Source: an uncultured Rubritalea sp.
GTDB lineage: Bacteria; Verrucomicrobiota; Verrucomicrobiia; Verrucomicrobiales; Akkermansiaceae
Assembly: GCA_937132085.1 (NCBI GenBank)
Contig: CAKZNV010000223.1
Coordinates: forward strand, 1-39,751
DNA length: 39,751 nt
Reading direction: 5' to 3'
Positions within the stretch are counted from its first letter, which is position 1, and each line of letters opens with the position of its first letter. The position numbers and the translations under genes were made by a program. Shown here piece after piece: positions 903 through 24,811 of this stretch. A model generated the notes under the pieces. It saw only the letters and a list, made by a program, of their open reading frames with translations, did no database searches and had not been told where the DNA came from.

Positions 903-947
903 CTTTTACCTTTTACAGCACTCCATTTGCCACTAAGTATCACCACC

Positions 948-1874
948 ATGAAAAGCATCGGAATCGACTTCGGAGGAACCTCCATCAAAATAGGCGTAGT
1001 AGAAGGCAAGGAAATCATCGCCTTCGCTGACCCAGTTATCACTGGCGACTACCCTACACCTGCCGCACTGATCGATGCGATTGCTGACGTAGTTACATCA
1101 CTCAGAGAACAATACTCGGACATCGTCGCCATCGGCTGTGGAGTCCCAGGATTCGTAGATTTCCCTACTGGCACCATTCATAATCTCACCAACGTCCCCG
1201 GCTGGAAGAACATTCCACTCAAAGACGAACTCAAGAAACGCACCGGACTACCGACAGCTATCGACAATGATGCCAATGCCATGGCGATCGCAGAATGGAA
1301 GCTCGGAGCTGCTAAAGGCTGCGATCATGCAGTCTGCCTCACACTCGGCACAGGTGTCGGCGGTGGAGTCATCGCTAATGGCGCTATGGTTCGTGGCGCA
1401 CAATTCGTAGCCGGTGAGCTAGGCCAGACCTCTATCAGTTACTCAGGCAGACTCGGCGCATACAATAACCCGGGAGCTCTAGAAGCTTACCTAGGTAATA
1501 ATGAATTCGCAGCGGATGCGATCCACGACTACGCCGCAGCAGGTGTCGACAAAAACATCTCCGACTGCACACCAGTAAAGCTCGCTAAGCTGGCTGAAGG
1601 AGGCTGTGAAATTGCGCTCAAATGCTGGGACAAGTTCGCCCAACGTCTAGCCACAGGACTAGCCTCCACATGTTGGTTACTCAACCCAGAGATTCTCGTC
1701 ATCGGTGGCGGTGTAGCAAACGCAGGACCGATCCTATTCGATCCACTCACTAAGCACCTACACGCTCAGCTCAGCGCACCATTCAAAGATCACCTAAAGA
1801 TCGAAAAAGCCCACTTCTCAAACAACGCCGGCATCCTAGGCTGCGCAGCGCTTGCGCTTGATGAGGTTGAGTAA
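948..1874 (+). CDS. ROK-family sugar kinase (glucokinase-like), zinc site lost
   Basis: Predicted cytoplasmic ATP-dependent sugar kinase of the ROK family, most likely a glucokinase-type enzyme. From the ATG at 948 the 308-residue protein has the phosphate-1 loop DFGGTSIK (7-14), the substrate region GVPGFVD (65-71), the IDNDANA segment with likely catalytic base Asp108, and the glycine-rich LGTGVGGG loop (133-140). A TTG at 927 would add seven residues, but the ATG puts the start exactly at the family N-terminus. Oddity: the usual ROK zinc site is absent. The normal GELGH is GELGQ (Gln160), and the following CxCGxxGC stretch reads GRLGAYNNPG with no cysteine. It is therefore either a zinc-independent ROK kinase or has altered activity. 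It contains no DNA-binding domain, so it is not a ROK repressor. Sugar specificity cannot be read from the sequence. Confidence 0.85.
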   Translation: MKSIGIDFGGTSIKIGVVEGKEIIAFADPVITGDYPTPAALIDAIADVVTSLREQYSDIVAIGCGVPGFVDFPTGTIHNLTNVPGWKNIPLKDELKKRTGLPTAIDNDANAMAIAEWKLGAAKGCDHAVCLTLGTGVGGGVIANGAMVRGAQFVAGELGQTSISYSGRLGAYNNPGALEAYLGNNEFAADAIHDYAAAGVDKNISDCTPVKLAKLAEGGCEIALKCWDKFAQRLATGLASTCWLLNPEILVIGGGVANAGPILFDPLTKHLHAQLSAPFKDHLKIEKAHFSNNAGILGCAALALDEVE

Positions 1875-1901: not shown

Positions 1902-2230
1902 CCAAAGCCAACGCTACATGTTCCGCTGTGCCTCCAGCACAGTCTTTGGATGGTGTTCACCCAGCACCATCCATGGCTGAAGCCATTCGCTTTGCACATT
2001 GTGTCCTGTCAGGACGGGAATTATCCTGAAGGTCGATCGACTGTATAATCCAGCGTTTTGCCCCCTTGCATCGTTCTAACAGATATCCACGTATTTCAGA
2101 CATTCAGTCTACCCATTGTGTCCAACAGGGACACTAATTCTCCTGAAGGGAGAACATGTGCATAGCCCAGCTTTTCAACGCTGAGTTACCATCAAAAAGA
2201 GATCACCGTGCTGAAGGCACGGCGTAGAGA
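1902..2230. repeat. 329-bp direct repeat, copy 1: array of small hairpins
   Basis: This block is repeated at 3319-3647 with a constant offset of 1417 bp, no indels and only four mismatches (2172, 2184, 2191, 2201). It is packed with short inverted repeats: 1926-1942 (CTGTGC/GCACAG), 1948-1972 (GGATGGTG/CACCATCC), 1973-1986 (ATGGC/GCCAT), 2003-2015 (GTCCT/AGGAC), 2118-2134 (GTGTCC/GGACAC), 2138-2154 (TTCTCC/GGAGAA), 2166-2185, and 2206-2222 (CCGTGC/GCACGG). Several loops are TGAAG or close to it, and the core CCTGAAGG occurs twice. In this copy the 2166-2185 hairpin is damaged at both 2172 and 2184, the two sites where it differs from copy 2. It has no credible coding content and no transposase. 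It resembles REP-type or MITE-like palindromic elements, but I do not recognise a named family. Confidence 0.93.
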
Positions 2231-2268
2231 AGTATCTACAAGCTTACTTATACTAGACTCGGTTCGTA

Positions 2269-3270
2269 TTACATATCAGTGATTGAGATGGTATACTCAG
2301 GTCTAGGATAGCGCTCGCAGATACATTTTAACAGCTTTCGAATAGCCTCATCGTTGCTATTTTTAGAGATCAATATTCTCACTTGAGGTCTCTTTCCGGC
2401 ATCCCTCCGAATTTCATCTATCCGCCTCTTAAGCTCGTATCTATAGATAGCCTGCTCAAAAACCACTCCATCAATCTTCACTTTTTCACCTTCTAGAATT
2501 TCGAATTCAATTGGATAGATATTGAAATCATCGATCAAGGCATCAAACTTAAACTTGATTGCGGGATAGCCCCTTCTTTCAATTTTAGATCTAACGTAAC
2601 ACTCCTTTTTTCCTTTTGAGGCAGTTCTAAATTGCTCAATCATCGGAGTATCAACAAAAGTAAACACACTAGCCGTCTTAGGCTCTTCATTATAACGAAT
2701 ATCAGACGCCTTGCTACTCCAGCCTTTGTTAGGATCATACTTAATCTCTACATCTTGTTCGATTTGACCGTTACTAAACGTTAATGAAAATTCCATGGTT
2801 TCAGACATCTTCATTCTAAACCCATGTCCCAGTTCAATGCCAGGTGGTCTGAAATCTTTAAATTCGATCTCAGTCATGTCAGTATAATCGACTTCTACCA
2901 AGACAGCCTTTCCGTTTTTCTCGACGAGGCATTGTGCTTGTCTTGACCTTTTAATGGGTTCTCCATTCACCTTTAAAACCAAGGTCTCCCTTTTAGCAAG
3001 ATAACCCGGCTCAGTAAAAATAACAACCTTCTCGCTAGTCTCGTTGTAAAAGAAAAGCACACTATGAAAATCATTCACGACAGCTGCTTTAAGACGAAAA
3101 TCTGGTAAGTTTCGATCAAAGAATCGAGTTACCCCCATTTCAAATAATTGAGATTCTATGTTAACCTTTTTCTCAACAGCAGGCTCAACAACTTCCACCT
3201 CTTCAGTCACCGCCTTCTTCTCAGAGCAACCGACCAGAATGATTCCCAGCACACAAAGTAAAAATTTCAT
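2269..3270 (-). CDS. Orphan lipoprotein, possible ExbD/TolR-like C-terminal domain
   Basis: The N-terminus is a lipoprotein signal peptide: a hydrophobic stretch ending in LVGC with the lipidated cysteine at residue 15, followed by an acidic, proline-containing linker. I chose the ATG at 3270; a TTG at 3276 would only add two residues. The middle region is a beta-rich segment I do not recognise. The last 80 or so residues (YELKRRIDEIRR, then PQVRILISKNS and a helix) resemble the periplasmic fold of ExbD/TolR proteins, which is a tentative pattern match only. There is no ExbB/TolQ partner in the window and no transmembrane anchor. The gene is alone between two copies of the 329-bp hairpin array, which suggests it was brought in or duplicated together with that sequence. 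Function unknown. Confidence 0.7.
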   Translation of the reverse strand: MKFLLCVLGIILVGCSEKKAVTEEVEVVEPAVEKKVNIESQLFEMGVTRFFDRNLPDFRLKAAVVNDFHSVLFFYNETSEKVVIFTEPGYLAKRETLVLKVNGEPIKRSRQAQCLVEKNGKAVLVEVDYTDMTEIEFKDFRPPGIELGHGFRMKMSETMEFSLTFSNGQIEQDVEIKYDPNKGWSSKASDIRYNEEPKTASVFTFVDTPMIEQFRTASKGKKECYVRSKIERRGYPAIKFKFDALIDDFNIYPIEFEILEGEKVKIDGVVFEQAIYRYELKRRIDEIRRDAGKRPQVRILISKNSNDEAIRKLLKCICERYPRPEYTISITDM

Positions 3271-3318
3271 GACCAAACAATGCTCGATCTCAGTAAACTA
3301 AGCAAATGTATTTAACCA

Positions 3319-3647
3319 CCAAAGCCAACGCTACATGTTCCGCTGTGCCTCCAGCACAGTCTTTGGATGGTGTTCACCCAGCACCATCCATGGCTGAAGC
3401 CATTCGCTTTGCACATTGTGTCCTGTCAGGACGGGAATTATCCTGAAGGTCGATCGACTGTATAATCCAGCGTTTTGCCCCCTTGCATCGTTCTAACAGA
3501 TATCCACGTATTTCAGACATTCAGTCTACCCATTGTGTCCAACAGGGACACTAATTCTCCTGAAGGGAGAACATGTGCATAGCCCAGCGTTTCAACGCTG
3601 GGTTACCTTCAAAAAGAAATCACCGTGCTGAAGGCACGGCGTAGAGA
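3319..3647. repeat. 329-bp direct repeat, copy 2: array of small hairpins
   Basis: Second copy of the block at 1902-2230, in the same orientation. Here the hairpin at 3583-3602 is perfect (CCCAGCGT, loop TTCA, ACGCTGGG), whereas copy 1 carries two disrupting differences. That suggests this copy is closer to the ancestral sequence. The left boundary falls right after the upstream end of the lipoprotein gene, and the right boundary is 27 bp beyond the stop of the minus-strand sulfatase gene at 3675. It could therefore also serve as the 3' end of the sulfatase transcript. No target-site duplication is evident at the edges of either copy. Confidence 0.93.
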
Positions 3648-3674
3648 TACTGCTAGATGAGCAGTAACTGCTAA

Positions 3675-5138
3675 TTATTTCTCTTTCTTAGGCTTCTTGC
3701 TCCCCTTCTTCCACTTATCCACTTTGATATCGGCATCATTAGTTTGAGCTTTGCCCTTGGTGGTTCTTCCAGCCGCTATTTGTGCATCTAGCTTTTTGCG
3801 CAGGCGTTGCACGATCTCAGGATGCTTTTCAGCTAGGTTATTCTTCTCAGCTTGATCCTTAGACATGTCGTAGAGTTGGTAATTCAGAGGACTATCGACT
3901 CCATTCTTCTTAAGAGCAGCTCCGTCTCTAGGAGATCCCCAGCCACCAGAACCTGGACAGCAAGCGAGCTTCCATTGCTTTTCACGGATAGAAAATAATC
4001 CACTGATAGAGTGGTGAATCACATCTTCACGTGTCCCTTTCTCACCAGCGAGGGACGAGATAAAACTGAAACTATCAACTGCGTCTTCGTCCTTGAATTC
4101 ATAGCCTATGATCTCAGCTGTTGTAGCAATAAGGTCGGTGATGCAAACGAGATCATAACAGCGAGAGCCGGCTTCCACTTTACCTGGCCAAGTCACAATG
4201 AAAGGCACTCGATGCCCACCATCCCAGATATCAGCCTTCATCCCACGTAGCCCGCCACTAGGATCATGCCCAGCCGCAGTTAGAGCTTTCACTCCTGATG
4301 TCCCTGGCGATGTGCCATTATCTGAGCTACAGATGATCAAGGTGTTTTCAAACTTACCTGCATCTTTCAATGCCTGAACGACTCTAGCATAGCTATTGTC
4401 AGTCTGCATCACGAAGTCAGCATGCTTGTTGATACCGCTTTTACCTAGCCATTCAGCGGACGGAACCACAGGACTGTGAGGAGCATTCCATGGGATATAC
4501 ATGAAAAACGGTTTTTTGCTGTCTTTACGAGCTGCTATGTAGCTCTCTGCAGTCTCTGTTAGCTTGGGCAACATTTCCTCAGCCTCTAGGTTTTGAGTCA
4601 CTTCCATGTCCTCAATCCATAGATCCATTTGACGAGCATAGTGAAATCCATAGAACTTATCGAACCCAGCATAGTCAATCGGTCCATGAGTGACCTTGGC
4701 TCCTTTTTTCACTTTGCCTTTTCCTTGCTTATGCTCACCGTCAAACTTCATGCCTAAGTGCCATTTACCAATCATAACCGTTTCATAGCCCTTAGTCTTG
4801 AGCATTTCTGCGATGGTGAGAGTTTCTTTTGCTACCAATGAATCACCTCCAGTCATCACACCTTTTTGCAATTTCGTCCGCCAAGCATAGCGCCCAGTGA
4901 TCAGTCCATATCGAGTCGGAGTGCAGACAGATGAGCCACTATGAGCATCGGTGAAAATCATTCCTGACTTCGCAATGCTATCTAAGCCTGGGGTTTTAAT
5001 TTTCCCTTTAGAGTTGAGACATTGGAGTTCTCCGTAGCCCATGTCATCTGCTAAAATAACTACGATGTTTGGCCGCTCTGCAGCTTGGGCGGATCCTATT
5101 ATTAGACAGGTTGCTGCCATGGTTAGAAATTTTTTCAT
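3675..5138 (-). CDS. Secreted type I sulfatase (third gene of the operon)
   Basis: Hydrolyses sulfate esters, probably on algal or animal polysaccharide, after export. The 487-residue protein has a signal peptide cleaved after AQA (about residue 19), the metal-binding Asp pair in ILADDMGYG (Asp31/Asp32), and the formylglycine motif CTPTR with Cys72 followed by LITGR. The GKWHLG motif near residue 125 supplies active-site Lys and His, and SSDNGT in the second half supplies further metal ligands. Length is normal for the S1 sulfatase family. Maturation needs a formylglycine-generating enzyme, which is not encoded here. The C-terminus is an unusual lysine-rich tail (KKGSKKPKKEK). It lies 24 bp behind the second sulfatase, in one operon read from 8060 downward. 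Substrate cannot be assigned. Confidence 0.95.
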   Translation of the reverse strand: MKKFLTMAATCLIIGSAQAAERPNIVVILADDMGYGELQCLNSKGKIKTPGLDSIAKSGMIFTDAHSGSSVCTPTRYGLITGRYAWRTKLQKGVMTGGDSLVAKETLTIAEMLKTKGYETVMIGKWHLGMKFDGEHKQGKGKVKKGAKVTHGPIDYAGFDKFYGFHYARQMDLWIEDMEVTQNLEAEEMLPKLTETAESYIAARKDSKKPFFMYIPWNAPHSPVVPSAEWLGKSGINKHADFVMQTDNSYARVVQALKDAGKFENTLIICSSDNGTSPGTSGVKALTAAGHDPSGGLRGMKADIWDGGHRVPFIVTWPGKVEAGSRCYDLVCITDLIATTAEIIGYEFKDEDAVDSFSFISSLAGEKGTREDVIHHSISGLFSIREKQWKLACCPGSGGWGSPRDGAALKKNGVDSPLNYQLYDMSKDQAEKNNLAEKHPEIVQRLRKKLDAQIAAGRTTKGKAQTNDADIKVDKWKKGSKKPKKEK

Positions 5139-5162
5139 AAGGTAATAAGGTAGGTTCTATAA

Positions 5163-6581
5163 TTATTTCTTCTTGTTCTTTTTAACAGGAATAGCATCAA
5201 CATCCAATGTATCTGCCATTTCTTTCTGTAGCTTGAGGAAATCCATCTTGAGCTGAATCCGTAGGTCCTTGAACTCAGGCTTGTCAGCGAGGTCATTCAT
5301 TTCCTCTGGGTCTTTCACGGTGTTGAATAAGCGCACTTTCTGAGCTTTGGGATACATGATGAGTTTGTAGTCGCCTTTAGCGATCATGCGTTGAGAGTTG
5401 ATATACTTTCCGTAGATCTCAGAATACTGCACTTTCTTTTCACCACGGATTAGAGGTAATACGCTGTTAAATTCTACGTGAACAGGCTTCTCTACTTTGG
5501 CTAATTCCAATGAGGTAGCCATCGCATCTTGCAGATAGATCGGCATCTTGAATTCGCTGCCAGCTTTGATCCCAGGACCTGAGATGAAGAATGGCACCTT
5601 CATGCTATGATCATACATACTTTGCTTCCCCACCAATCCATGACAGCCGACAGAAAGCCCATGGTCAGCAGTGAAGATGATGTAAGTATTGTCAGCCTGA
5701 CCACTCTTTTCTAGTGCTGCGAAAATTCTGCCTATCTGGACATCCATGTGCGTAGCGAGTGCGAAATATTCTTGGCGATGCACCTTCACTGCATACTCAG
5801 TGCGTGGTGAGGGCATGAGACGCTCATCACGAAGCCCTTTTGGAGGACAGCCGATCTCTGAATCATATGGGTAGTTCGCTAAGAAATTTTGGGGAATCTT
5901 GATGTCCTCTAATGGATACATATCGATGAATTCCTTAGGTGCTTGTCTAGGATCATGGGTGGCATTGAAAGCAATATACATGAAGAATGGCTTAGGATCG
6001 TTCTTAGCTTGGCCGATAAAGTCTATAGCTGTATTCGCCTCAACTTCACTCCAGTGTGTGCCACCTTGCCAGAATCCACCTTTAGATTTATCCCATGGCT
6101 TCCAGCCCTTTTCGTAGTCTTCTGGACTGAGTGGGCGGTTGTATCCTTCTTTCACTGCTCTAGGCATTCCTGGCCTCACATTTTTTGCATGATTAAAAAT
6201 CTTCTTAGCATCAGCTCTGACGTGCCACTTGCCTGTCATGTAAGTTGTGTATCCAGCTTTTGACATGAGTTCTGGCCATGTGACTTCATTTTTAATCGCA
6301 TTCTGGGCACGATTCACAAATGAACCAGACACTAACATCGCTCGACTAGCGGCACAAACAGCACCATTCCAAGCTCCCATATTATAGCTATTACTAAAGT
6401 TCGCTCCATTAGCTCGTAGCTTATCCAGGTTTGGAGTTTTGACGCAAGTTCTGCCAGATGAACCAATGGCGTCTAAGCTCATGTCATCCGCAAAGATAAA
6501 GAGGATGTTAGGTTTTTCTGTCTTTTCAGCGGCTTGCAGCGATAAGATCGATGCGAATAGAATCAGTAGAGTATGTTTCAT
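5163..6581 (-). CDS. Secreted type I sulfatase with CAASR active-site motif (second gene)
   Basis: A secreted sulfatase of 472 residues with signal peptide (cleavage around LQAAEK, residues 15-20), metal-binding ADDMS (Asp32/Asp33) and GKWHVR in the active-site region. The formylglycine signature is CAASR at Cys76, with Ala in place of the usual Pro of CxPxR, followed by AMLVSG. Alanine at this place is found in some bacterial sulfatases and is probably still processed, but this is the least canonical member of the trio. The central TADHGLSVG segment matches heparan N-sulfatase/iduronate-sulfatase-like members, without fixing the substrate. The protein ends in a lysine run (VKKNKKK). It starts 6 bp after the stop of the first sulfatase, so translation is likely coupled. 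No ribosome-binding sequence lies at the usual distance. Confidence 0.93.
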   Translation of the reverse strand: MKHTLLILFASILSLQAAEKTEKPNILFIFADDMSLDAIGSSGRTCVKTPNLDKLRANGANFSNSYNMGAWNGAVCAASRAMLVSGSFVNRAQNAIKNEVTWPELMSKAGYTTYMTGKWHVRADAKKIFNHAKNVRPGMPRAVKEGYNRPLSPEDYEKGWKPWDKSKGGFWQGGTHWSEVEANTAIDFIGQAKNDPKPFFMYIAFNATHDPRQAPKEFIDMYPLEDIKIPQNFLANYPYDSEIGCPPKGLRDERLMPSPRTEYAVKVHRQEYFALATHMDVQIGRIFAALEKSGQADNTYIIFTADHGLSVGCHGLVGKQSMYDHSMKVPFFISGPGIKAGSEFKMPIYLQDAMATSLELAKVEKPVHVEFNSVLPLIRGEKKVQYSEIYGKYINSQRMIAKGDYKLIMYPKAQKVRLFNTVKDPEEMNDLADKPEFKDLRIQLKMDFLKLQKEMADTLDVDAIPVKKNKKK

Positions 6582-6587
6582 AAATTG

Positions 6588-8060
6588 TTATTTGTTAGAT
6601 TTTCTCCTCTTTGGAGCAAGGTATTCAGGATGACCTTTTTTATGCGTCTGTGACTTAACGGAAGATATTTTTTCCCAATCTGTAGCTGGGAGACGAGTGT
6701 AGGATGGATCATTATCTTGCTTCGGAAGTAAGGGAATCACTGCGATTAACTTGTCGCATTCAGCTTTAAATTTAGGCTTACCGATGAGATTTACTTTTTC
6801 ATCTAGATCATTGAGCACATCGACCACTTTCACTGGCTTACGGTTGACGTCGATGAAAAGTTTGTAGCGTTCATTTCGGATCACTCGATCACGGAAGTAG
6901 TAAACATTTTCTACTCCCTTCTCGGTAAGGCGAGCTGGATGCGAACCCATACCTAGAATCCATGGTCGTTGGTTTTTCTCCTCCGTTCCTAAGAATACTT
7001 TTTTAAGAGAAAAGCCATCATAGTCATATCCAGCTTCAGGCTTTCCGCCTGCTAGATCCGTGAAAGTCTGATGCATGTCAGTGAAGTCGACTAAGGCATC
7101 ACTCTTCTTCCCTGCTGGCACCATCCCTGGGCAGCTGACGATAAATGGCGTATTGACGCCATTCTCAGTCGTCTTGGTTTTCCCCCCTCTTACTTTTCTT
7201 CCATTACGAAGATTCGTCATTGCTCCTGATGTGCCATTATCACAGGTCCAAATCACGATGGTGTTGTTACGGATCTTTTCACTTTCTAACTTAGCAATGA
7301 TCTTCCCTAACAGGTGATCCGTGTATTCCACCATGGCTACGTGCTTCTCATGCTTAGTCTTCGCATTCAGACTGAGTGGTGTGTGAACGAATGGTCCGTG
7401 AGTCAGAGCCATAGGATAATAGATGAAAAATGGCTTCTCTTTGTTGTCCGAAATAAAATCTAACACAAAGTCATTATAGACATCAGGCCCAAACTTACCC
7501 TTGTAGGTTTTGCTTCCTTGTTTGGTATGAATGTAGGGATCCCAGTAGCGTTGAGTGCTAATATTAGCATGACCTTTCACCTTCGATCCTTCAGCGCCAG
7601 TCCACATGCAATAGTCGTCAAAGCCATGCTTCACCATCGCCTCTGGGTGTGTTCGGAAATCATTTAGTTGCCATTTACCAGCTACACCGGTCGTGTAGCC
7701 TGCTGCCTTCATACTCCGAGCTATCGATGGATTCTTGCTCCAGTCAAAGTAACCAGCACCCCATCGTGGAGAGTCCCAATGATTCACCCAGCCATTACGG
7801 AATGGATATTGGCCAGTCATAAAACATGCACGACTAGGTGTGCACTGAGGCATGGAGTAAGCATTGTTAAACATGGTGCCACTAGCAGCCAAGGAATCAA
7901 TCTGAGGAGTCTGAATCCCCTCGCCTCCATAACAACTCAACCATTCCTTACCGAGATCATCGATGAGGATGAAAATGATGTTTGGCTTATCAGCAGGCTC
8001 TCTTGCCTCTACTACGGCGGCAGAAAACATTAGCAGAATACTGTAAAAGATTGTTTTCAT
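6588..8060 (-). CDS. Secreted type I sulfatase (first gene of the operon)
   Basis: The promoter-proximal gene of the three-sulfatase operon. The 490-residue product has a signal peptide ending near VEA (residue 18), metal-binding LIDDLG (Asp34/Asp35), a canonical formylglycine motif CTPSR with Cys73 followed by CFMTGQ, the AGKWQLN segment, and TCDNGTSG. GKWQ replaces the more common GKWH, so one active-site histidine may be substituted. The C-terminus is basic (APKRRKSNK), as in the two downstream sulfatases. The upstream region (8061-8100) shares a block with the glycosidase-like gene starting at 11975 and contains a 7-bp inverted repeat. The three enzymes belong to different subfamilies and would be made together, which fits stepwise desulfation of one complex polysaccharide. 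Confidence 0.95.
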   Translation of the reverse strand: MKTIFYSILLMFSAAVVEAREPADKPNIIFILIDDLGKEWLSCYGGEGIQTPQIDSLAASGTMFNNAYSMPQCTPSRACFMTGQYPFRNGWVNHWDSPRWGAGYFDWSKNPSIARSMKAAGYTTGVAGKWQLNDFRTHPEAMVKHGFDDYCMWTGAEGSKVKGHANISTQRYWDPYIHTKQGSKTYKGKFGPDVYNDFVLDFISDNKEKPFFIYYPMALTHGPFVHTPLSLNAKTKHEKHVAMVEYTDHLLGKIIAKLESEKIRNNTIVIWTCDNGTSGAMTNLRNGRKVRGGKTKTTENGVNTPFIVSCPGMVPAGKKSDALVDFTDMHQTFTDLAGGKPEAGYDYDGFSLKKVFLGTEEKNQRPWILGMGSHPARLTEKGVENVYYFRDRVIRNERYKLFIDVNRKPVKVVDVLNDLDEKVNLIGKPKFKAECDKLIAVIPLLPKQDNDPSYTRLPATDWEKISSVKSQTHKKGHPEYLAPKRRKSNK

Positions 8061-14792: not shown

Positions 14793-17700
14793 TTACTGAC
14801 TACTTGCATTTATCCGTAGAAACTGGCGATTAATCGCCGCACTAGTAGGCGTTGGATGTCTATAACGTAGTGTCTCTGTTCCATCTGCATTGGATGTTCT
14901 ATCAGTGAGAATGGCATCAGTCCCCCACCCTGAAAGGTCATCTGATGCCTGCGCATTGACATTACTCGCTATCAGAGCATTACGGGTCAGGGTAATCGTG
15001 AGATAAGTTTCACCGTCTGGGTAGGTTGCCATCCCAAGGACTGGAGCAGGTATTAGATTAGGATCTGCATCTGAACTACCAAGTGTCAGCTCAATCAATG
15101 CCGAATAGCCATCACCGTCAGCATCCTCTCCTGGATTCACTGGCAGAGCAATCGAGTCATTACTGGCCGGATTTCCATCGTTCATTGTGCTAGGGCGCCA
15201 CTCCCTAGGGTCACTGAGATCCACTCCGGTTCTAGGATTGATCAGCACTAAACTTGGACCACTGCCATCTGGACTAGTCGGCCAGAACAGATCATCTACG
15301 CCGCCCCTATCAGTGCCATCGCTATAGGTAAAGCTCAGTAGAGTAGTGCTCGTAGCAGATACTAGAGTGACCGTTTCGCTAGAGTTTTTCAGACCTCCGG
15401 TGAACTCTCCTTGCACTGATGTAGCAGAATGACGCAATGCGAATGCCTCAGCATTTGCCACGATAACGATCCTCTCACCTGGCTGAATGATACTATCTTC
15501 TGGGAAAATATAACCAATTCCCTGTGTAAAACTACATCCATCTAGACGCAGTGGGCTTGCTGAAATATTCGCCAATTCTAAGAATTCAAAATCACCATCT
15601 ACCACATCTGGTATGGAGATCAGTTCAGCACTTGAAGGGTTGTCTGGATGATAATGAAGTTCTGTCACTAGCAGATTCGCTGGCAGAGGATCTACTGGTG
15701 GGATGGAAATAATGAAATCCACACTATTCACAGCACTCCAGTTTCCCCCATTGTATAGCCGAGCATTGATCGTAACATCAGAACTCAGTGTGATCTGCGA
15801 TGCTTGACCAGATTCTACTCCAGTTAAAGTCAGGTCAAAACTAATATCTGAGCTATCGAGTGCGGTTTGGTGTATTTCTACAGCGATCGTATTATTACCA
15901 GTTTGGAGTGCACTAACAGGTATACTAAATTGGTTGAAAGCATTCTCATCCGCACCTCCAATAGCAGATGATGCTAGAGTCGTGTATGTTGGGCTTCCAC
16001 TAGGCATATTGGAACGCGATACTTCCACTCCATTCAGATACACCACCGCCCCATCATCCCGCTTGATCGTGAGACTTAGACTAGTAAACACTGACGCATC
16101 CGTGACGTTGAACGATTTACGAAAGTAGGTGGTAACATGCTTATTATTCCCATCACTACCAAATGACACCGTGCTTTCCTCATCGCCATCTCCGTAGCCT
16201 AGCTCAGCATCTCCACTAGCCCAGCCACTGTCATCAAAGGCAGTTGCTCTCCATGCCGTGCCTTGGTTACTGCCATCATCGAGATACTTCCACTCACTAC
16301 CTACCGTGATGAGTGATGAGGTAGTTCCTCCAGACTGATTGATCGCAGTAGCATTTGGATTAATCCCGCCACCTGCTAACCGAGGATCAGTCCCATCCAG
16401 AGTATAGTAGATCACACCACTATCTTCCGCGTCTAAGATAACCTTAAAGCCGCTAGGAACAATGCCTCCATTCTGATTGTAGGTAGGAGCATCAAGGGCT
16501 GGATACCAACCTTGGTTTTTGAAATCACTTATCTTATCCGAAGTCAGAGAAGGAAACACGTTGTTGATGATGTTCTCTTGGAAATTATTGTATGAAGTTG
16601 GAGTGTGCTCACCCCAGCGTGCTGATTCACTCAGAAATGACAGCTTCGTCTCATCATAACGACGCTGTAATCGAGCGGTAGTTTTATCAGGAGTGAAGGC
16701 TCCGTTATTGAAAAAGTGTAAATGGATACGATCAGATAGCAGAGCCATGAAGTCTGGGTGAGCCTCTGCGAGAAGTTCTCCAAAGATATTCCCTGGCCCA
16801 CCAGCATCATTATTTTGACCTATGCCTGAGGTGTTGAAATACCCATCTGCATCGTTGAGATACATTTTCGAGGTCACTCCATTATCAATCGCCTGTAACA
16901 AAGTTCTGTATTCATTTTCACATTTACCAGAATTGTAGAGCAACATGAAATCAATGTAGTTTGCTATATCCACTCTAGCCTGCAAATCCGCCCATGGGTT
17001 AGCACCCGCTGCTAAATTCTTGATGTGAGTCCAGCCAGCATCAGTTCCATCATACGCTTCACCTGGCGACCAGCCGCCTACGTTGGCATTGCCATTGATC
17101 GCATCATAGCTGTCCTTATCATTTCCTAAATACTGTTCTGCGAACGATGCACTCCATCGCTCACGAAGATGATATTGCCCCCAGTAAACTCCATTTCGGA
17201 TCACATGCACAAACCTCCCATGTGGCGCCACATGACCCATCTCTAGTGTAGAGTCATCTGTAAATCTGTTAGAGAGGTAAGCTCCTCGTAGCGACATATC
17301 ATGCGAGCCACTACGCAGGTCTAGGTGATCAAAAGTATCTGTCGGTGCTCGGCCATTAGAGAAGCCATCAAAAAGAGCATGTTTCAGCTTACCTGGCCCA
17401 TATTGCTTGCGGAAGTAGATCCGATAACTCTTCTTGTCAAAATTCGTAAAGTAACCACCAAATCGAGTGATCCCAGCATCGTATTGAAACCCCTTGCTGC
17501 CATCTGGATTGATCAGCTCGACAGATGTCATTTTCTCAGAACTATTACTGAGGTTAGCAACATCATCAATATTAATAGAAATTACTGGTAACGCTTTCAG
17601 AGAGTCTACCATTTGGCCTGAATAAGTAGGGTCCTGCGTCACGTCCGTATCCATGTTCGATGCGGCAATGATGTCAGCAGCAAATAAGTAAGTATGGGTA

Positions 17701-19256
17701 TCTACATCAGTCGGCTCATAGTCTGTTAGTGATGCGTAAGCTCGCACCACAGTAGTCTCATCAATAAGAATCGGCCCACTGTATGTCATCCCATTTGAAG
17801 CCGTAGGAATACTGCCATCAGTCGTGTAGCGAATCGTCGCAGATGGAGTAACACTAGTAATAGTGAGCATAAATGCGGTTTCATAAAAGCCACGGTCATG
17901 GCTGAACTTAGTATCTGCCACAAAGCCTATATAGCTCGCAGTTGTATTCTCTGCACCAGGTGTTGGAACTGGGAAATATTCATATTCATCATTACTAGAC
18001 AGTCCATATGACACATCTTCTCCCAGCTCTGGATACATGGTAGGAGTAGGATAATTTTCAGGAACTTGGCTGATAATCAGAAGGCCAGCGTCATTAGTCA
18101 GCGCCACATAGTCCCCCGCTGAACTGAGTTTGAAATCTGTATGTAGTTCACCTACTATTCGATTCTTACCGGATGCAAAAATAACGATATATCCATTTGC
18201 AGGAATCATCGTCCCATTAGGAATATCCCAAGTAGTCACAAGCGTAGGATCATCCGTGAGACGGTAATCTCCAGCATCGATAGGATACGGATTAGGATTA
18301 TACAGCTCGATCCAATCTGACTGCTCTCCATCCATATCTGTAAGCCCATCTTTGTTAGAAGCCACTAGTTCATTGAGCACAGGTGGCAGCGGAGTAGCCC
18401 CCACATAGATCGTCAAACTCTGCGTTATACTACCCGCTACATTTGTCGCCGTGAGTGTGTAGGTTGTCGTTACGGTAGGGCTTACAGTAGTATTTCCAGT
18501 CGTTGCCACACTACCAACACCTGATGAAATGCTCGCACTGATAGCATCTTCCGTCTCCCAGCTGAGTGTCACGCTCGTGCCAGAGCTCACATTGAGACCG
18601 CTTGAAGATGTGTTAGAGCCGTCACTTGCATCAAATTTAATAATCTTAGGAACAGGCTGCCCAAGATCTCTCACCATGATCGCATTGAACTGAGGATGGT
18701 CTGCCCCAGCTCCCCCCACAAAGCGGATCGGATGGCTTGTCCCTGTTGCGATAAATTCTCCGATAACATATTCTGAAGGAGGACCACTATCCAGAGTCAC
18801 TGAATCCGTGCCAGCACCACTATCAAAGGTCTTCTGTCTATTCGACGTAGAAGGTCGAGTATCTGCTATCCACAATTGAACAAGATACTTATTTCCAACA
18901 GTCAGCCCACCTATAGAAACCGTCTCTGTCTGAAATGCATAAGTGAAAGTGCCTAGCAAATCTTCATAAGCTTGATCCTCTCCTCGGTTATGAGGGTCGA
19001 TATTACTAACAGAAAGTCCAAGATCATTACTGTTGGTGAAATTGATCACTTCAACACCTGTATTAATACTTACTAAGCCTCCACTACCTCCTCCATTTTT
19101 AGCCTCCAGTAAAACGCCATCTGTATTAAAATCGGTCACCATCCCTGTAATGACCTTTGGATCCTCCCATATAATTTCCGCCGAAGAGCGAAGAGTGATG
19201 AGTAAAAATACCAGTAATTGAAGGCTGAAAATGGGAGTAATTCTTTTAAAAGTCAT
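14793..19256 (-). CDS. Giant secreted surface protein with lamin-tail, CotH and chitobiase-like domains
   Basis: A very large exported protein. I use the ATG at 19256 (1487 residues) because it starts a signal peptide (FSLQLLVFLLITLRSSA, residues 10-26); an in-frame start at 19379 would put 41 unlikely residues before it. Domains in order (numbering from 19256): a beta-sandwich at about 30-200, an Ig-like domain (205-286), a lamin-tail domain with SDWIELYNP (about 292-400), a chitobiase/hexosaminidase C-terminal-like domain (TIRYTTDGSIPT, about 455-525), and a CotH-like kinase fold (about 555-900). A second chitobiase-like domain (VIYYTLDGTDP), a carbohydrate-binding-like domain (DDGAVVYLNG) and a second lamin-tail domain (FEFLELANIS) follow. 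CotH proteins can phosphorylate proteins; activity here is unproven. No PEP-CTERM or LPXTG-type anchor was seen. It probably works at the cell surface in adhesion or polymer binding. Confidence 0.85.
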   Translation of the reverse strand: MTFKRITPIFSLQLLVFLLITLRSSAEIIWEDPKVITGMVTDFNTDGVLLEAKNGGGSGGLVSINTGVEVINFTNSNDLGLSVSNIDPHNRGEDQAYEDLLGTFTYAFQTETVSIGGLTVGNKYLVQLWIADTRPSTSNRQKTFDSGAGTDSVTLDSGPPSEYVIGEFIATGTSHPIRFVGGAGADHPQFNAIMVRDLGQPVPKIIKFDASDGSNTSSSGLNVSSGTSVTLSWETEDAISASISSGVGSVATTGNTTVSPTVTTTYTLTATNVAGSITQSLTIYVGATPLPPVLNELVASNKDGLTDMDGEQSDWIELYNPNPYPIDAGDYRLTDDPTLVTTWDIPNGTMIPANGYIVIFASGKNRIVGELHTDFKLSSAGDYVALTNDAGLLIISQVPENYPTPTMYPELGEDVSYGLSSNDEYEYFPVPTPGAENTTASYIGFVADTKFSHDRGFYETAFMLTITSVTPSATIRYTTDGSIPTASNGMTYSGPILIDETTVVRAYASLTDYEPTDVDTHTYLFAADIIAASNMDTDVTQDPTYSGQMVDSLKALPVISINIDDVANLSNSSEKMTSVELINPDGSKGFQYDAGITRFGGYFTNFDKKSYRIYFRKQYGPGKLKHALFDGFSNGRAPTDTFDHLDLRSGSHDMSLRGAYLSNRFTDDSTLEMGHVAPHGRFVHVIRNGVYWGQYHLRERWSASFAEQYLGNDKDSYDAINGNANVGGWSPGEAYDGTDAGWTHIKNLAAGANPWADLQARVDIANYIDFMLLYNSGKCENEYRTLLQAIDNGVTSKMYLNDADGYFNTSGIGQNNDAGGPGNIFGELLAEAHPDFMALLSDRIHLHFFNNGAFTPDKTTARLQRRYDETKLSFLSESARWGEHTPTSYNNFQENIINNVFPSLTSDKISDFKNQGWYPALDAPTYNQNGGIVPSGFKVILDAEDSGVIYYTLDGTDPRLAGGGINPNATAINQSGGTTSSLITVGSEWKYLDDGSNQGTAWRATAFDDSGWASGDAELGYGDGDEESTVSFGSDGNNKHVTTYFRKSFNVTDASVFTSLSLTIKRDDGAVVYLNGVEVSRSNMPSGSPTYTTLASSAIGGADENAFNQFSIPVSALQTGNNTIAVEIHQTALDSSDISFDLTLTGVESGQASQITLSSDVTINARLYNGGNWSAVNSVDFIISIPPVDPLPANLLVTELHYHPDNPSSAELISIPDVVDGDFEFLELANISASPLRLDGCSFTQGIGYIFPEDSIIQPGERIVIVANAEAFALRHSATSVQGEFTGGLKNSSETVTLVSATSTTLLSFTYSDGTDRGGVDDLFWPTSPDGSGPSLVLINPRTGVDLSDPREWRPSTMNDGNPASNDSIALPVNPGEDADGDGYSALIELTLGSSDADPNLIPAPVLGMATYPDGETYLTITLTRNALIASNVNAQASDDLSGWGTDAILTDRTSNADGTETLRYRHPTPTSAAINRQFLRINASSQ

Positions 19257-19472: not shown

Positions 19473-22145
<2,673 letters not shown>

Positions 22146-22160
22146 ACAAAAAACATTACA

Positions 22161-22206
22161 GTAGCGACTATCATGCAGTTTTAATGCTTGCCGTGGTAGT
22201 CGCTGC
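22161..22206 (+). terminator. Terminator-like hairpin after valS
   Basis: The two arms (22161-22174 and 22193-22206) pair over 14 bp with several G-U wobbles around the perfect core AGCGACTA/TAGTCGCT, with an 18-base loop. The sequence after it is AATTTATTTCTTAT, U-rich but interrupted. It lies 16 bp after the valS stop codon and 48 bp before the next start codon. Rho-independent termination is plausible; a role in the leader of the downstream gene cannot be excluded. Confidence 0.65.
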
Positions 22207-22253
22207 AATTTATTTCTTATACTTCCCTGTGATTCCTACGGGAAAAAATTTCC

Positions 22254-23462
22254 ATGAAACGACTCAAAGATATTCCTAATCTCAGCCCTGAAGCCATCGA
22301 ATTACTCCAATCCGCTGGCTATCTCGATGTGGCTTCTCTCAAGAAACACACACTTGAGGAGATCACAGTAGAAACGAGTAAAACCAACGAGATTTTAGAT
22401 ATCTTTCCAGAGTCCCCTACCGATGAACTCTTGGCAGTATGGCTGGAGCCACTTGGTTTTAAGGCATCACAGCCAGACATAACGCAATCAACGTCCAAGC
22501 ATGTTATCGCTCCTCAATCATTGCTTTCTGCGTCGTTTGCTATCCCTATTTCTCCAAAGTTTGCTGAAAGCAACAACATCACTGTCGAGAACCTACCTGC
22601 AGGCTCAGTGAAATTCATCTCTGAAGGAGAGGCTCTTAAGCACATGAGCGTTGAGGAATTAGAAGCAACTCCAAGCTCTGAATCAGAGCCCGAAAAAGTC
22701 CAGATCCAGAATAAGCCTATCGAGCTACTAGAAAACACGACTCGTGTCGAAGTTTCTGCACCTAAAACTAGCTCAAATGACGAAAGAGCTGACAATCTAA
22801 AAAGAGCGTCTGAGTCTGCTAAGGCTGAGCTAGACGCGGCTGAAGCAAAAGCAAAAGCGAAACCACAGGTTCATGATCAACCTCACACAGACATCGAGGA
22901 TCTTTTTTCTGACCCAGTATTCAGTGATAATTCTGAGGGTATCATCAACAAGAGCCGCATCATCGATATGGAAACTTTCCGTAAGGCAGGTAGCAGAATC
23001 GAGCCTCTAGTCAGTGCCTCAGCGCATGATCTCACCCGCTCTACTAAGCAGGAAACAAACGAAGGTGTAGATCCTTCATCACGTAGATTCATCAAAGGTG
23101 TGCTTCATAGCCGAGCTGGTGATTTCATGGTCAGCACATTCTTCTTTTTACTTTCGATCGCTCTATTCCTCTCAGCATTCGTGCTTACACCACTACTATT
23201 CCTCGATAAACATGAATACTGGTGGGCGGCATTTGCTCCCCTTCTCATGGTAGTGGGAATCTTCGTATACTTTGCATTCACCCGTAGAGCGATGTGCCCT
23301 ATATGCAATCAGAAGCAATATGCCATCAAACGCTGTCTCAAACACCGTAATGCTCACCATTGGGGAATGCTAGGCTACATGCTGCCTACAGCGATCCACG
23401 TGGTTCTCTTTAAGTGGTTCCGCTGTATCTTCTGCGGAACATCAGTTCGCCTGAAAGAGTAA
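22254..23462 (+). CDS. Membrane protein with helix-hairpin-helix-like N-terminus and C-terminal zinc ribbon
   Basis: Unrecognised 402-residue protein. The first 70 residues (RLKDIPNLSPEAIELLQSAG onward) read like a helix-hairpin-helix or DUF4332-type domain. They are followed by a low-complexity, Glu/Ser-rich linker with a coiled-coil stretch (SESAKAELDAAEAKAKAK). Two clear membrane segments lie at about 291-315 and 322-344, and a third possible one at 365-386. The C-terminal part has CPIC (Cys348, Cys351), KRCLKH and CIFC (Cys391, Cys394), probably a zinc ribbon split by a hydrophobic segment. The topology would put the N-terminal domain and the ribbon in the cytoplasm if there are two segments. 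It sits between valS and serS but has its own upstream gap, and nothing ties it functionally to translation. Confidence 0.8.
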   Translation: MKRLKDIPNLSPEAIELLQSAGYLDVASLKKHTLEEITVETSKTNEILDIFPESPTDELLAVWLEPLGFKASQPDITQSTSKHVIAPQSLLSASFAIPISPKFAESNNITVENLPAGSVKFISEGEALKHMSVEELEATPSSESEPEKVQIQNKPIELLENTTRVEVSAPKTSSNDERADNLKRASESAKAELDAAEAKAKAKPQVHDQPHTDIEDLFSDPVFSDNSEGIINKSRIIDMETFRKAGSRIEPLVSASAHDLTRSTKQETNEGVDPSSRRFIKGVLHSRAGDFMVSTFFFLLSIALFLSAFVLTPLLFLDKHEYWWAAFAPLLMVVGIFVYFAFTRRAMCPICNQKQYAIKRCLKHRNAHHWGMLGYMLPTAIHVVLFKWFRCIFCGTSVRLKE

Positions 23463-23542
23463 ATTTCTGTTACTGATTACTAAGCACTGGTAATTTCCAC
23501 GATATACGTTATTGCTCTGCCCACTAAATAACCAATCTTACT

Positions 23543-24811
23543 ATGCTAGACATCAAAGACATCAGAGAAAACGCAGAAGCCATCAAAGCGAAACTTGCCA
23601 CACGTGGCGGAGACGCACACACACTTATCGATGAAGTCCTCGCCTCTGATGAATCTCGTAGAAAGATCGAGACTGAGAAACAAAAGCTTCAATCTGAGCG
23701 CAAAACTGCTTCTAAAAGCATTGGCGCTCTCATGGCAAAAGGTGAAGACGCTGAGCCAGCAAAGGCAGCAGTCAAAGTGATTGGTGACCAGATCAAAGAG
23801 CTCGAAATCGCAGCTGATGAAGCTAGCACACGTCAGGAAAGCTTACTCATGAACATCCCTAACATTCCCCATGCGGAATGCCCAGTGGGTGCTGATGAGA
23901 ATGATAACCCTGAGGTAAGAATCTGGGGTGATAAGCCAGCAATCGCTGAGCCTAAAGACCACGTCCAGATCGCTGAGCAGCACGGCATCATCGACTTTGA
24001 AGCAGCAGCTAAAATCTCTGGTTCAGGCTTCGCTATGTATCGTGGAAAAGGCGCTCGTCTTGAACGTGCGTTGATTAATTTCCTACTAGACCTACAGACT
24101 GAGGAACATGGCTACACTGAGGTCAACGTGCCTCACATCATCCGTAGATACTGCATGGAAGGCACTGGCCAGTTACCTAAATTTGAAGACGACATGTATG
24201 GCATCGAGGACAACCAAATGTTCCTTGCTCCTACTGCAGAAGTCCCAGTCACCAATCTACTCCGTGACATGATCCTCACTGAAGATGAGCTTCCTGTGAA
24301 AATGACTGCACACACACCATGCTTCCGCCGTGAAGCTGGCAGCGCAGGCAGAGACAACAAAGGCATCATCCGCACGCACCAGTTCGATAAAGTAGAGCTC
24401 GTCCAAGCTGTCCACCCTGACAACTCAATGCAGGTGCTCGAAGAACTCACTGGTCACGCTGAAGCAGCGCTGCAGAAGCTAGAGCTTCACTACCGCACTA
24501 TCGAGCTATGCACAGGCGATGTAGGATTCAGCGCTATGAAGACCTACGACATCGAAGTCTGGGCTCCTGGCCAAGGCAAATTCCTCGAAGTCTCAAGCTG
24601 CTCAAACTTTGGCGACTACCAAGCCCGCAGAATGAAGCTTCGTTTCAAGAACAGCGATGGCAAAAACCAATTCTGCCACACACTCAACGGCTCAGGCACC
24701 GCACTGCCAAGACTCTACGTAGCGATCCTAGAGCAACACCAACAGCCAGATGGAAGCATCAAGATTCCAGCAGCTCTTGTGCCGTATTTCGGCTCAGAAA
24801 CGATTGGATAA
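23543..24811 (+). CDS. serS: Seryl-tRNA synthetase
   Basis: Class II aminoacyl-tRNA synthetase that charges tRNA-Ser (and tRNA-Sec where present). The 422-residue protein begins MLDIKDIRENAEAIKAKL, followed by the long antiparallel coiled-coil arm (to about residue 100) that grips the tRNA long variable arm. The catalytic core has motif 2 TPCFRREAGSAGRD at about 258-271 and motif 3 NGSGTALPRLYVAILE at about 382-397; ISGSGFAMYRG lies earlier. The length is normal. The start codon is unambiguous and lacks a Shine-Dalgarno sequence. A small membrane-protein gene follows after 21 bp with no terminator, so read-through into 24833-27083 is likely. Confidence 0.98.
   Translation: MLDIKDIRENAEAIKAKLATRGGDAHTLIDEVLASDESRRKIETEKQKLQSERKTASKSIGALMAKGEDAEPAKAAVKVIGDQIKELEIAADEASTRQESLLMNIPNIPHAECPVGADENDNPEVRIWGDKPAIAEPKDHVQIAEQHGIIDFEAAAKISGSGFAMYRGKGARLERALINFLLDLQTEEHGYTEVNVPHIIRRYCMEGTGQLPKFEDDMYGIEDNQMFLAPTAEVPVTNLLRDMILTEDELPVKMTAHTPCFRREAGSAGRDNKGIIRTHQFDKVELVQAVHPDNSMQVLEELTGHAEAALQKLELHYRTIELCTGDVGFSAMKTYDIEVWAPGQGKFLEVSSCSNFGDYQARRMKLRFKNSDGKNQFCHTLNGSGTALPRLYVAILEQHQQPDGSIKIPAALVPYFGSETIG

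Follow-up and report, generated by a model that had tools for sequence, protein, structure and literature searches.

Inverted double-hairpin repeats flanking a lipoprotein gene of an uncultured Rubritalea belong to a multi-copy family associated with subclass 1.2 TnpA-Y1 transposases

The closest described relatives of the repeats presented here are the REP/RAYT REPtrons with their REPINs or BIMEs (PMC3116915, PMC8266576, PMC2817692), with which they share the occurrence of extragenic palindromes both scattered through the genome and to either side of a Y1 HUH transposase gene, a unit consisting of an inverted pair, units that outnumber the gene and one repeat family per transposase. The two differ in the enzyme, which belongs to class 2 (motif Y...NP) in REPtrons and to class 1, subclass 1.2 (Y...Q..HH), in our case, and also in the unit, here composed of two hairpins with a linker of 10–13 nt (~20 nt in the own genome) and devoid of a conserved GT[AG]G foot. 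Subclass 1.2, with its signature Y...Q..HH, was described mainly from Cyanobacteria and Bacteroidetes and listed as having no REP association (Quentin et al., 2018, PMC6006769). Class 3 of the same classification resembles our system in its atypical flanks with several structures, the high copy number of these structures and its presence in Planctomycetes and Acidobacteria, but has a Y....Q motif, a longer core and the foot CnGA (PMC6006769). Finally, Acido-Lenti-1 (RF01687) was reported as a probable small RNA of Acidobacteria and Lentisphaerae (PMC2864571) and is typed as sRNA in Rfam. We found no link of subclass 1.2 or Acido-Lenti-1 to REPs in the open literature consulted.

The window (the whole stretch of 39,751 nucleotides that was analyzed) comes from a metagenome-assembled genome of 4.46 Mb in 254 contigs (G000, referred to as the own genome). 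It contains two direct repeats of 329 bp each (1902–2230 and 3319–3647), offset by 1417 bp, with four mismatches and no indels, and a single ORF between them (2269–3276, minus strand), just as the sequence-only reading had described. The features of this region are the following:

927–1874, plus strand: ROK-family gene bordering copy 1; the order coaX–ROK is kept in relatives, the following gene is not
1902–2230, plus strand: block copy 1, an inverted (-,+) pair of double-hairpin units
1918–2000, minus strand: left double-hairpin unit of copy 1 (covariance model R1, 45.1 bits), with the terminal hairpin 1926–1942 outermost
2155–2230, plus strand: right double-hairpin unit of copy 1 (R1, 78.8 bits, the unit being itself a member of the seed alignment), with its big hairpin 2166–2185 broken
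2269–3276, minus strand: lipoprotein gene enclosed by the blocks, 335 aa if started at TTG, with an in-frame ATG at 3270 and a lipobox-like LVGC at the start (sequence inspection)
3319–3647, plus strand: block copy 2, with every hairpin intact
3335–3417, minus strand: left double-hairpin unit of copy 2 (R1, 45.1 bits)
3556–3602, minus strand: match to RF01687 in copy 2 (28.9 bits against a gathering threshold of 37, E 0.00046), covering the big and the inner small hairpin
3572–3647, plus strand: right double-hairpin unit of copy 2 (R1, 89.8 bits, the best of the genome, with copy 2 in the seed alignment), big hairpin 3583–3602, terminal hairpin 3623–3639
3675–5138, minus strand: sulfatase gene bordering copy 2 (Pfam)

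The sulfatase gene is the first of three successive sulfatase-like genes on the minus strand (3675–8060, Pfam having been applied to the first alone), and a 7-bp tandem repeat (CACCTTT) occupies the contig end ahead of coaX (1–89). The four differences between copies (2172 T/G, 2184 A/G, 2191 A/T, and 2201 G/A) are all confined to the right-hand unit. Two of them, 2172 and 2184, fall one on each arm of the hairpin at 2166–2185 and break two pairs, while the copy 2 counterpart (3583–3602, CCCAGCGTTTCAACGCTGGG) is a perfect 8-bp stem, which bears out another of the initial observations. Counting strictly, with stems of at least 6 bp and no overlaps, there are six hairpins in copy 1 and seven in copy 2, against a mean of ~0.45 and a maximum of 3 in dinucleotide shuffles; the figure of at least eight per repeat proposed initially is reached only by including overlapping hairpins such as ATGGCTGAAGCCAT. 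BLAST lengthens the match between copies to 335 nt at 98.5% identity, a value derived entirely from the assembly of this MAG. An assembly artefact or gene conversion could have produced such near-identity, the duplication then being unreal or not recent, and the genome is indeed fragmented, with several contigs ending near units (C7, C51, C88, and C246), as expected of sequences that are hard to assemble. However, the copies carry four mismatches, the sequence outside them differs on both sides, and other, independent loci show the arrangement block–gene–block with less similar blocks (see below), so that we regard this explanation as improbable.

When the block was searched against the own genome, 31 places were found, mostly matching its right-hand end. 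The repeated entity is a 76-nt double hairpin, each block being an inverted pair of such units. An alignment of 18 units (A2; 16 gathered by similarity to the window unit and two read off the contig C199 locus) gave the consensus GTGCAAAGC, with an 8-bp hairpin with a TTCA loop, ~20 nt, a 6-bp hairpin with a TGAAG loop, and a tail. Within the stems 97.2% of the cells are paired and nine of the 14 pairs have changed on both sides, a result reached by none of 500 shuffles, bearing in mind that most rows were chosen by similarity to the block and that this alignment also served to draw the structure. Choosing rows in this way biases their identity, yet it produces no compensatory changes by itself. 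The covariance model R1 detected at least 46 units in the own genome (a lower bound, with 150 candidates scored), which answers the question of copy number raised by the sequence-only reading and discards a unique duplication or purely local array. None of the 45 units tested overlaps an ORF of at least 120 aa, whereas 83% of positions drawn at random from these loci do. They pair as (-,+), spanning ~190–320 nt with the terminal hairpin outermost, in 11 of the 12 close pairs (counted by hand), and several of the blocks are located between convergent genes. Multiple extragenic copies of short palindromes in inverted pairs are what characterizes REPs and REPINs. The GT[AG]G that canonical REPs have at the foot of the hairpin is not conserved here, however; on inspection of A2, only the two window copies have a GTAG next to the terminal hairpin, and it lies 3' of it. 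Just past a unit in contig C102 there is a tandem repeat with a 7-bp period (2925–3039 of the extracted locus).

The comparison with relatives provided one presence/absence site. In contig C32 a unit sits between the stop and start codons of a LYS1-like/nspC-like gene pair, and the syntenic pair in G005, of the same genus, is separated by ~11 nt with no unit (81% identity in the first gene). Our searches found neither units nor subclass 1.2 tnpA in G005. This is a single site and could also reflect loss, and neither an insertion polymorphism among strains nor a target site was found. Two other relatives (G001 and G008), both incomplete genomes, contain a few units and no transposase that we could find. 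Regarding the window itself, in no relative examined (flanks of up to 1.5 kb) is the ROK gene followed by the lipoprotein or sulfatase gene, which discards a conserved two-copy arrangement in these genomes. A block restricted to this locus, in an arrangement shared by all relatives, had been named beforehand as the outcome that would speak against mobility; instead, the unit is multi-copy and the genes following ROK differ.

Six Y1 genes score well in the own genome, five of which encode HUH proteins with the common motif Y...Q..HH that assigns them to subclass 1.2; the Y...NP motif of class 2 TnpA-REP is absent. Two of them lie between unit blocks, the arrangement that defines a REPtron:

C129: units at 17633 (-) and 17765 (+), tnpA 17894–18334, units at 18370 (-) and 18515 (+)
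C199: units at 22740 (-) and 22988 (+), tnpA 23079–23522, units at 23579 (-) and 23774 (+)

After the second block of C199, a short segment (4860–4890 of the extracted locus) resembles the 3' end of tnpA and is possibly a remnant of a duplicated block–tnpA. Two of the own-genome proteins were compared with NCBIfam models, and they stay far from the REP-transposase model NF047646 (25.9 and 19.5 bits, cut-off 80), and the transposase type, like the unit motif, discards a canonical GTAG-REP with a classical RAYT. Thus, the suggestion of REP/RAYT-like elements mobilized in trans was right in that the units are dispersed and flank Y1 genes elsewhere in the genome, and the RAYT-type search that it called for did retrieve such genes, but what they represent is subclass 1.2 with a double hairpin. 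The two genes tested exceed the cut-off of NF033573 (transpos_IS200; 61.5 and 59.6 vs. 55), as they would if the blocks simply bounded an ordinary IS200/IS605 insertion sequence. We find this highly improbable, given that the five genes are divergent single genes (41–68% identity to the first) rather than mobile copies, that the repeats are far more numerous than the gene, and that subclass 1.2 transposases were not found in viral contigs and had only two full-length matches, at 37–41% identity, in 72,556 plasmid records. Phage carriage can be discarded on the same viral search, in which a subclass 1.1 query likewise found nothing. Around a further subclass 1.2 gene, in contig C34 (region 21695–22428), there is a second, sequence-distinct family of units with 50 matches, also matching beside the C172 gene, which is what a separate set of repeats for each transposase would predict. 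In the window the layout is (-,+) lipoprotein gene (-,+), and it is not alone in enclosing something other than tnpA. By inspection, four genes lie between blocks 93% identical to each other in C244, a small lipoprotein gene lies between direct block repeats in C86, and a PIN-like gene is surrounded in C97 by a shorter 84% repeat and a duplicated gene end. Two details of these loci were recorded. Between the two C86 blocks (2833–3746 of the extracted locus) the small lipoprotein gene is accompanied by an incomplete, truncated second copy of its start, and in C97 (43–1567 of the extracted locus) the duplicated 3' end of the gene and unit sequences bracket the PIN-domain-like ORF. The window lipoprotein could not be assigned to a known family, neither Pfam nor NCBIfam giving a match above cut-off, and its gene is patchy in the genus, being found in three of the 58 genomes searched (the own, G003 at 35% identity, and weakly G024). 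This patchiness, these other loci and the same layout around tnpA at C129 and C199 would fit a composite mobile unit in which the lipoprotein gene is carried between the blocks. We consider it rather unlikely. The own genome has neither a second copy of the gene nor of the whole block–gene–block, and the G003 relative, which is located at the end of a contig and adjoins a gyrA-like gene, has no double-hairpin unit in the stretch examined. We saw no evidence that the gene moved with the blocks, and the layout is explained more simply, in fewer steps, if the blocks were duplicated in tandem or recombined homologously with each other.

To extend the comparison, the five own-genome transposases were used to scan contigs, and the best 80 of 521 loci were analyzed, a sample that leans toward closer relatives. 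They span Verrucomicrobiota, Bacteroidota, Planctomycetota, Chlamydiota, Calditrichota, Armatimonadota, and others. Carriers include a cultured strain, Flavipsychrobacter stenotrophus RB1R16, with ~25 units. The motif Y...Q..HH is present in 78 of the 80, and this, together with the five own proteins, a length of ~148 aa and a low copy number, agrees with the published subclass 1.2 (PMC6006769), from which they differ in the wider range of phyla and in the flanking double-hairpin repeats. In 31 of 76 loci the two flanks of the gene had repeats in common above the 99% level of a mispaired-flank null, compared to none of 43 with distal flanks. The double-hairpin motif was detected in 36 of 79 upstream and 33 of 76 downstream flanks (~45%), against five of 497 distal windows (~1%) and one of 465 shuffled windows, although in 30 of the 75 loci having both flanks the strict motif is missing on both sides. 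Toward the gene, the recurring form is a small hairpin GCCC(TGAAA, CAACG, CAAAG or CGAAG)GGGC, 10–13 nt, and a big hairpin (CCCAGGGC-AAC-GCCCTGGG) followed by ~50 nt to the gene, all mirrored on the other side. Neither a cleavage site nor a guide sequence was identified, and where a guide tetranucleotide was looked for, the big hairpin is preceded by no more than a weak AG (A 85%, G 63%, n = 71 units). The absence of REP association attributed to subclass 1.2 does not hold at these loci, and the association of the repeats with the transposase is well supported.

Acido-Lenti-1 was the only non-tRNA Rfam family found at gathering threshold in the 80 loci. Its sequence and two-hairpin structure match units at that threshold in many phyla, including sister units of C199 (42.6 and 41.1 bits, threshold 37); since the window block scores below it, the link between window and RF01687 runs via these C199 units. 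Fifteen of the 18 matches fall within 350 nt of tnpA, a zone comprising 14% of the sequence (p 7e-11). Among 115 sampled genomes of the phylum, eight had both RF01687 and subclass 1.2 tnpA, two only RF01687, six only tnpA, and 99 neither (Fisher p 2e-7, a test that ignores phylogeny, although the eight co-occurring genomes represent eight genera). The extreme case was a Desulfobacteraceae MAG (G170) with at least 113 RF01687 copies in regular inverted pairs, 23 of the 30 close pairs among the listed copies being (-,+) at 143–160 nt. Acido-Lenti-1 thus seems to be the double-hairpin unit, likely a mobile DNA hairpin rather than a small RNA, judging from sequence comparisons. Were the hairpins to act as RNA, be it a small RNA or 3'-UTR terminators or mRNA stabilizers, the link with the transposase would be secondary, and both the Rfam typing and the blocks between convergent genes, where bidirectional terminators would be useful, could be taken in this sense. 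The RNA explanation is made unlikely by three observations that fit a DNA element, namely over a hundred copies in one genome in inverted pairs at fixed spacing, mirror-image units to either side of a single transposase gene in many phyla, and a conserved gene pair that has a unit in one genome and lacks it in another. A host role of the unit after insertion is possible.

Overall, we consider it quite likely that the window blocks belong to a non-canonical (GTAG-less) REP/REPIN system mobilized in trans by subclass 1.2 TnpA, the best candidates for the cognate enzyme being the chromosomal single-domain HUH/Y1 proteins of C129 and C199. Each 329-bp block would be a REPIN/BIME-like non-autonomous element, made of two inverted REP units with extra hairpins in the spacer. 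On the model of IS200/IS605 and TnpA-REP, the units would fold as DNA hairpins when a single strand is exposed (on the lagging-strand template or otherwise), and the transposase, presumably dimeric, would recognize one at each end of the block and nick with its tyrosine. The block might then be moved or copied to a different intergenic position, often one where two genes converge, and neighboring blocks could serve as substrates for homologous recombination, the simplest route to block–gene–block loci such as that of the window. A more speculative extension, to which we give little credence, is that subclass 1.2 Y1 proteins form a separate REPtron lineage on the IS200 side, present in many phyla, with REPIN-like blocks that also carry host genes; if true, block–lipoprotein–block would be the gene-carrying counterpart of block–tnpA–block.

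These results give a repeat partner to a widespread group of transposases that was thought to be without repeats (and is annotated by NCBI models as IS200/IS605 transposase), and imply that what Rfam lists as a small RNA is likely a mobile hairpin of DNA. They suggest that a REP-type association also arose within the IS200 side of the family, and provide a candidate cognate enzyme and its single-stranded unit as a directly testable pair.
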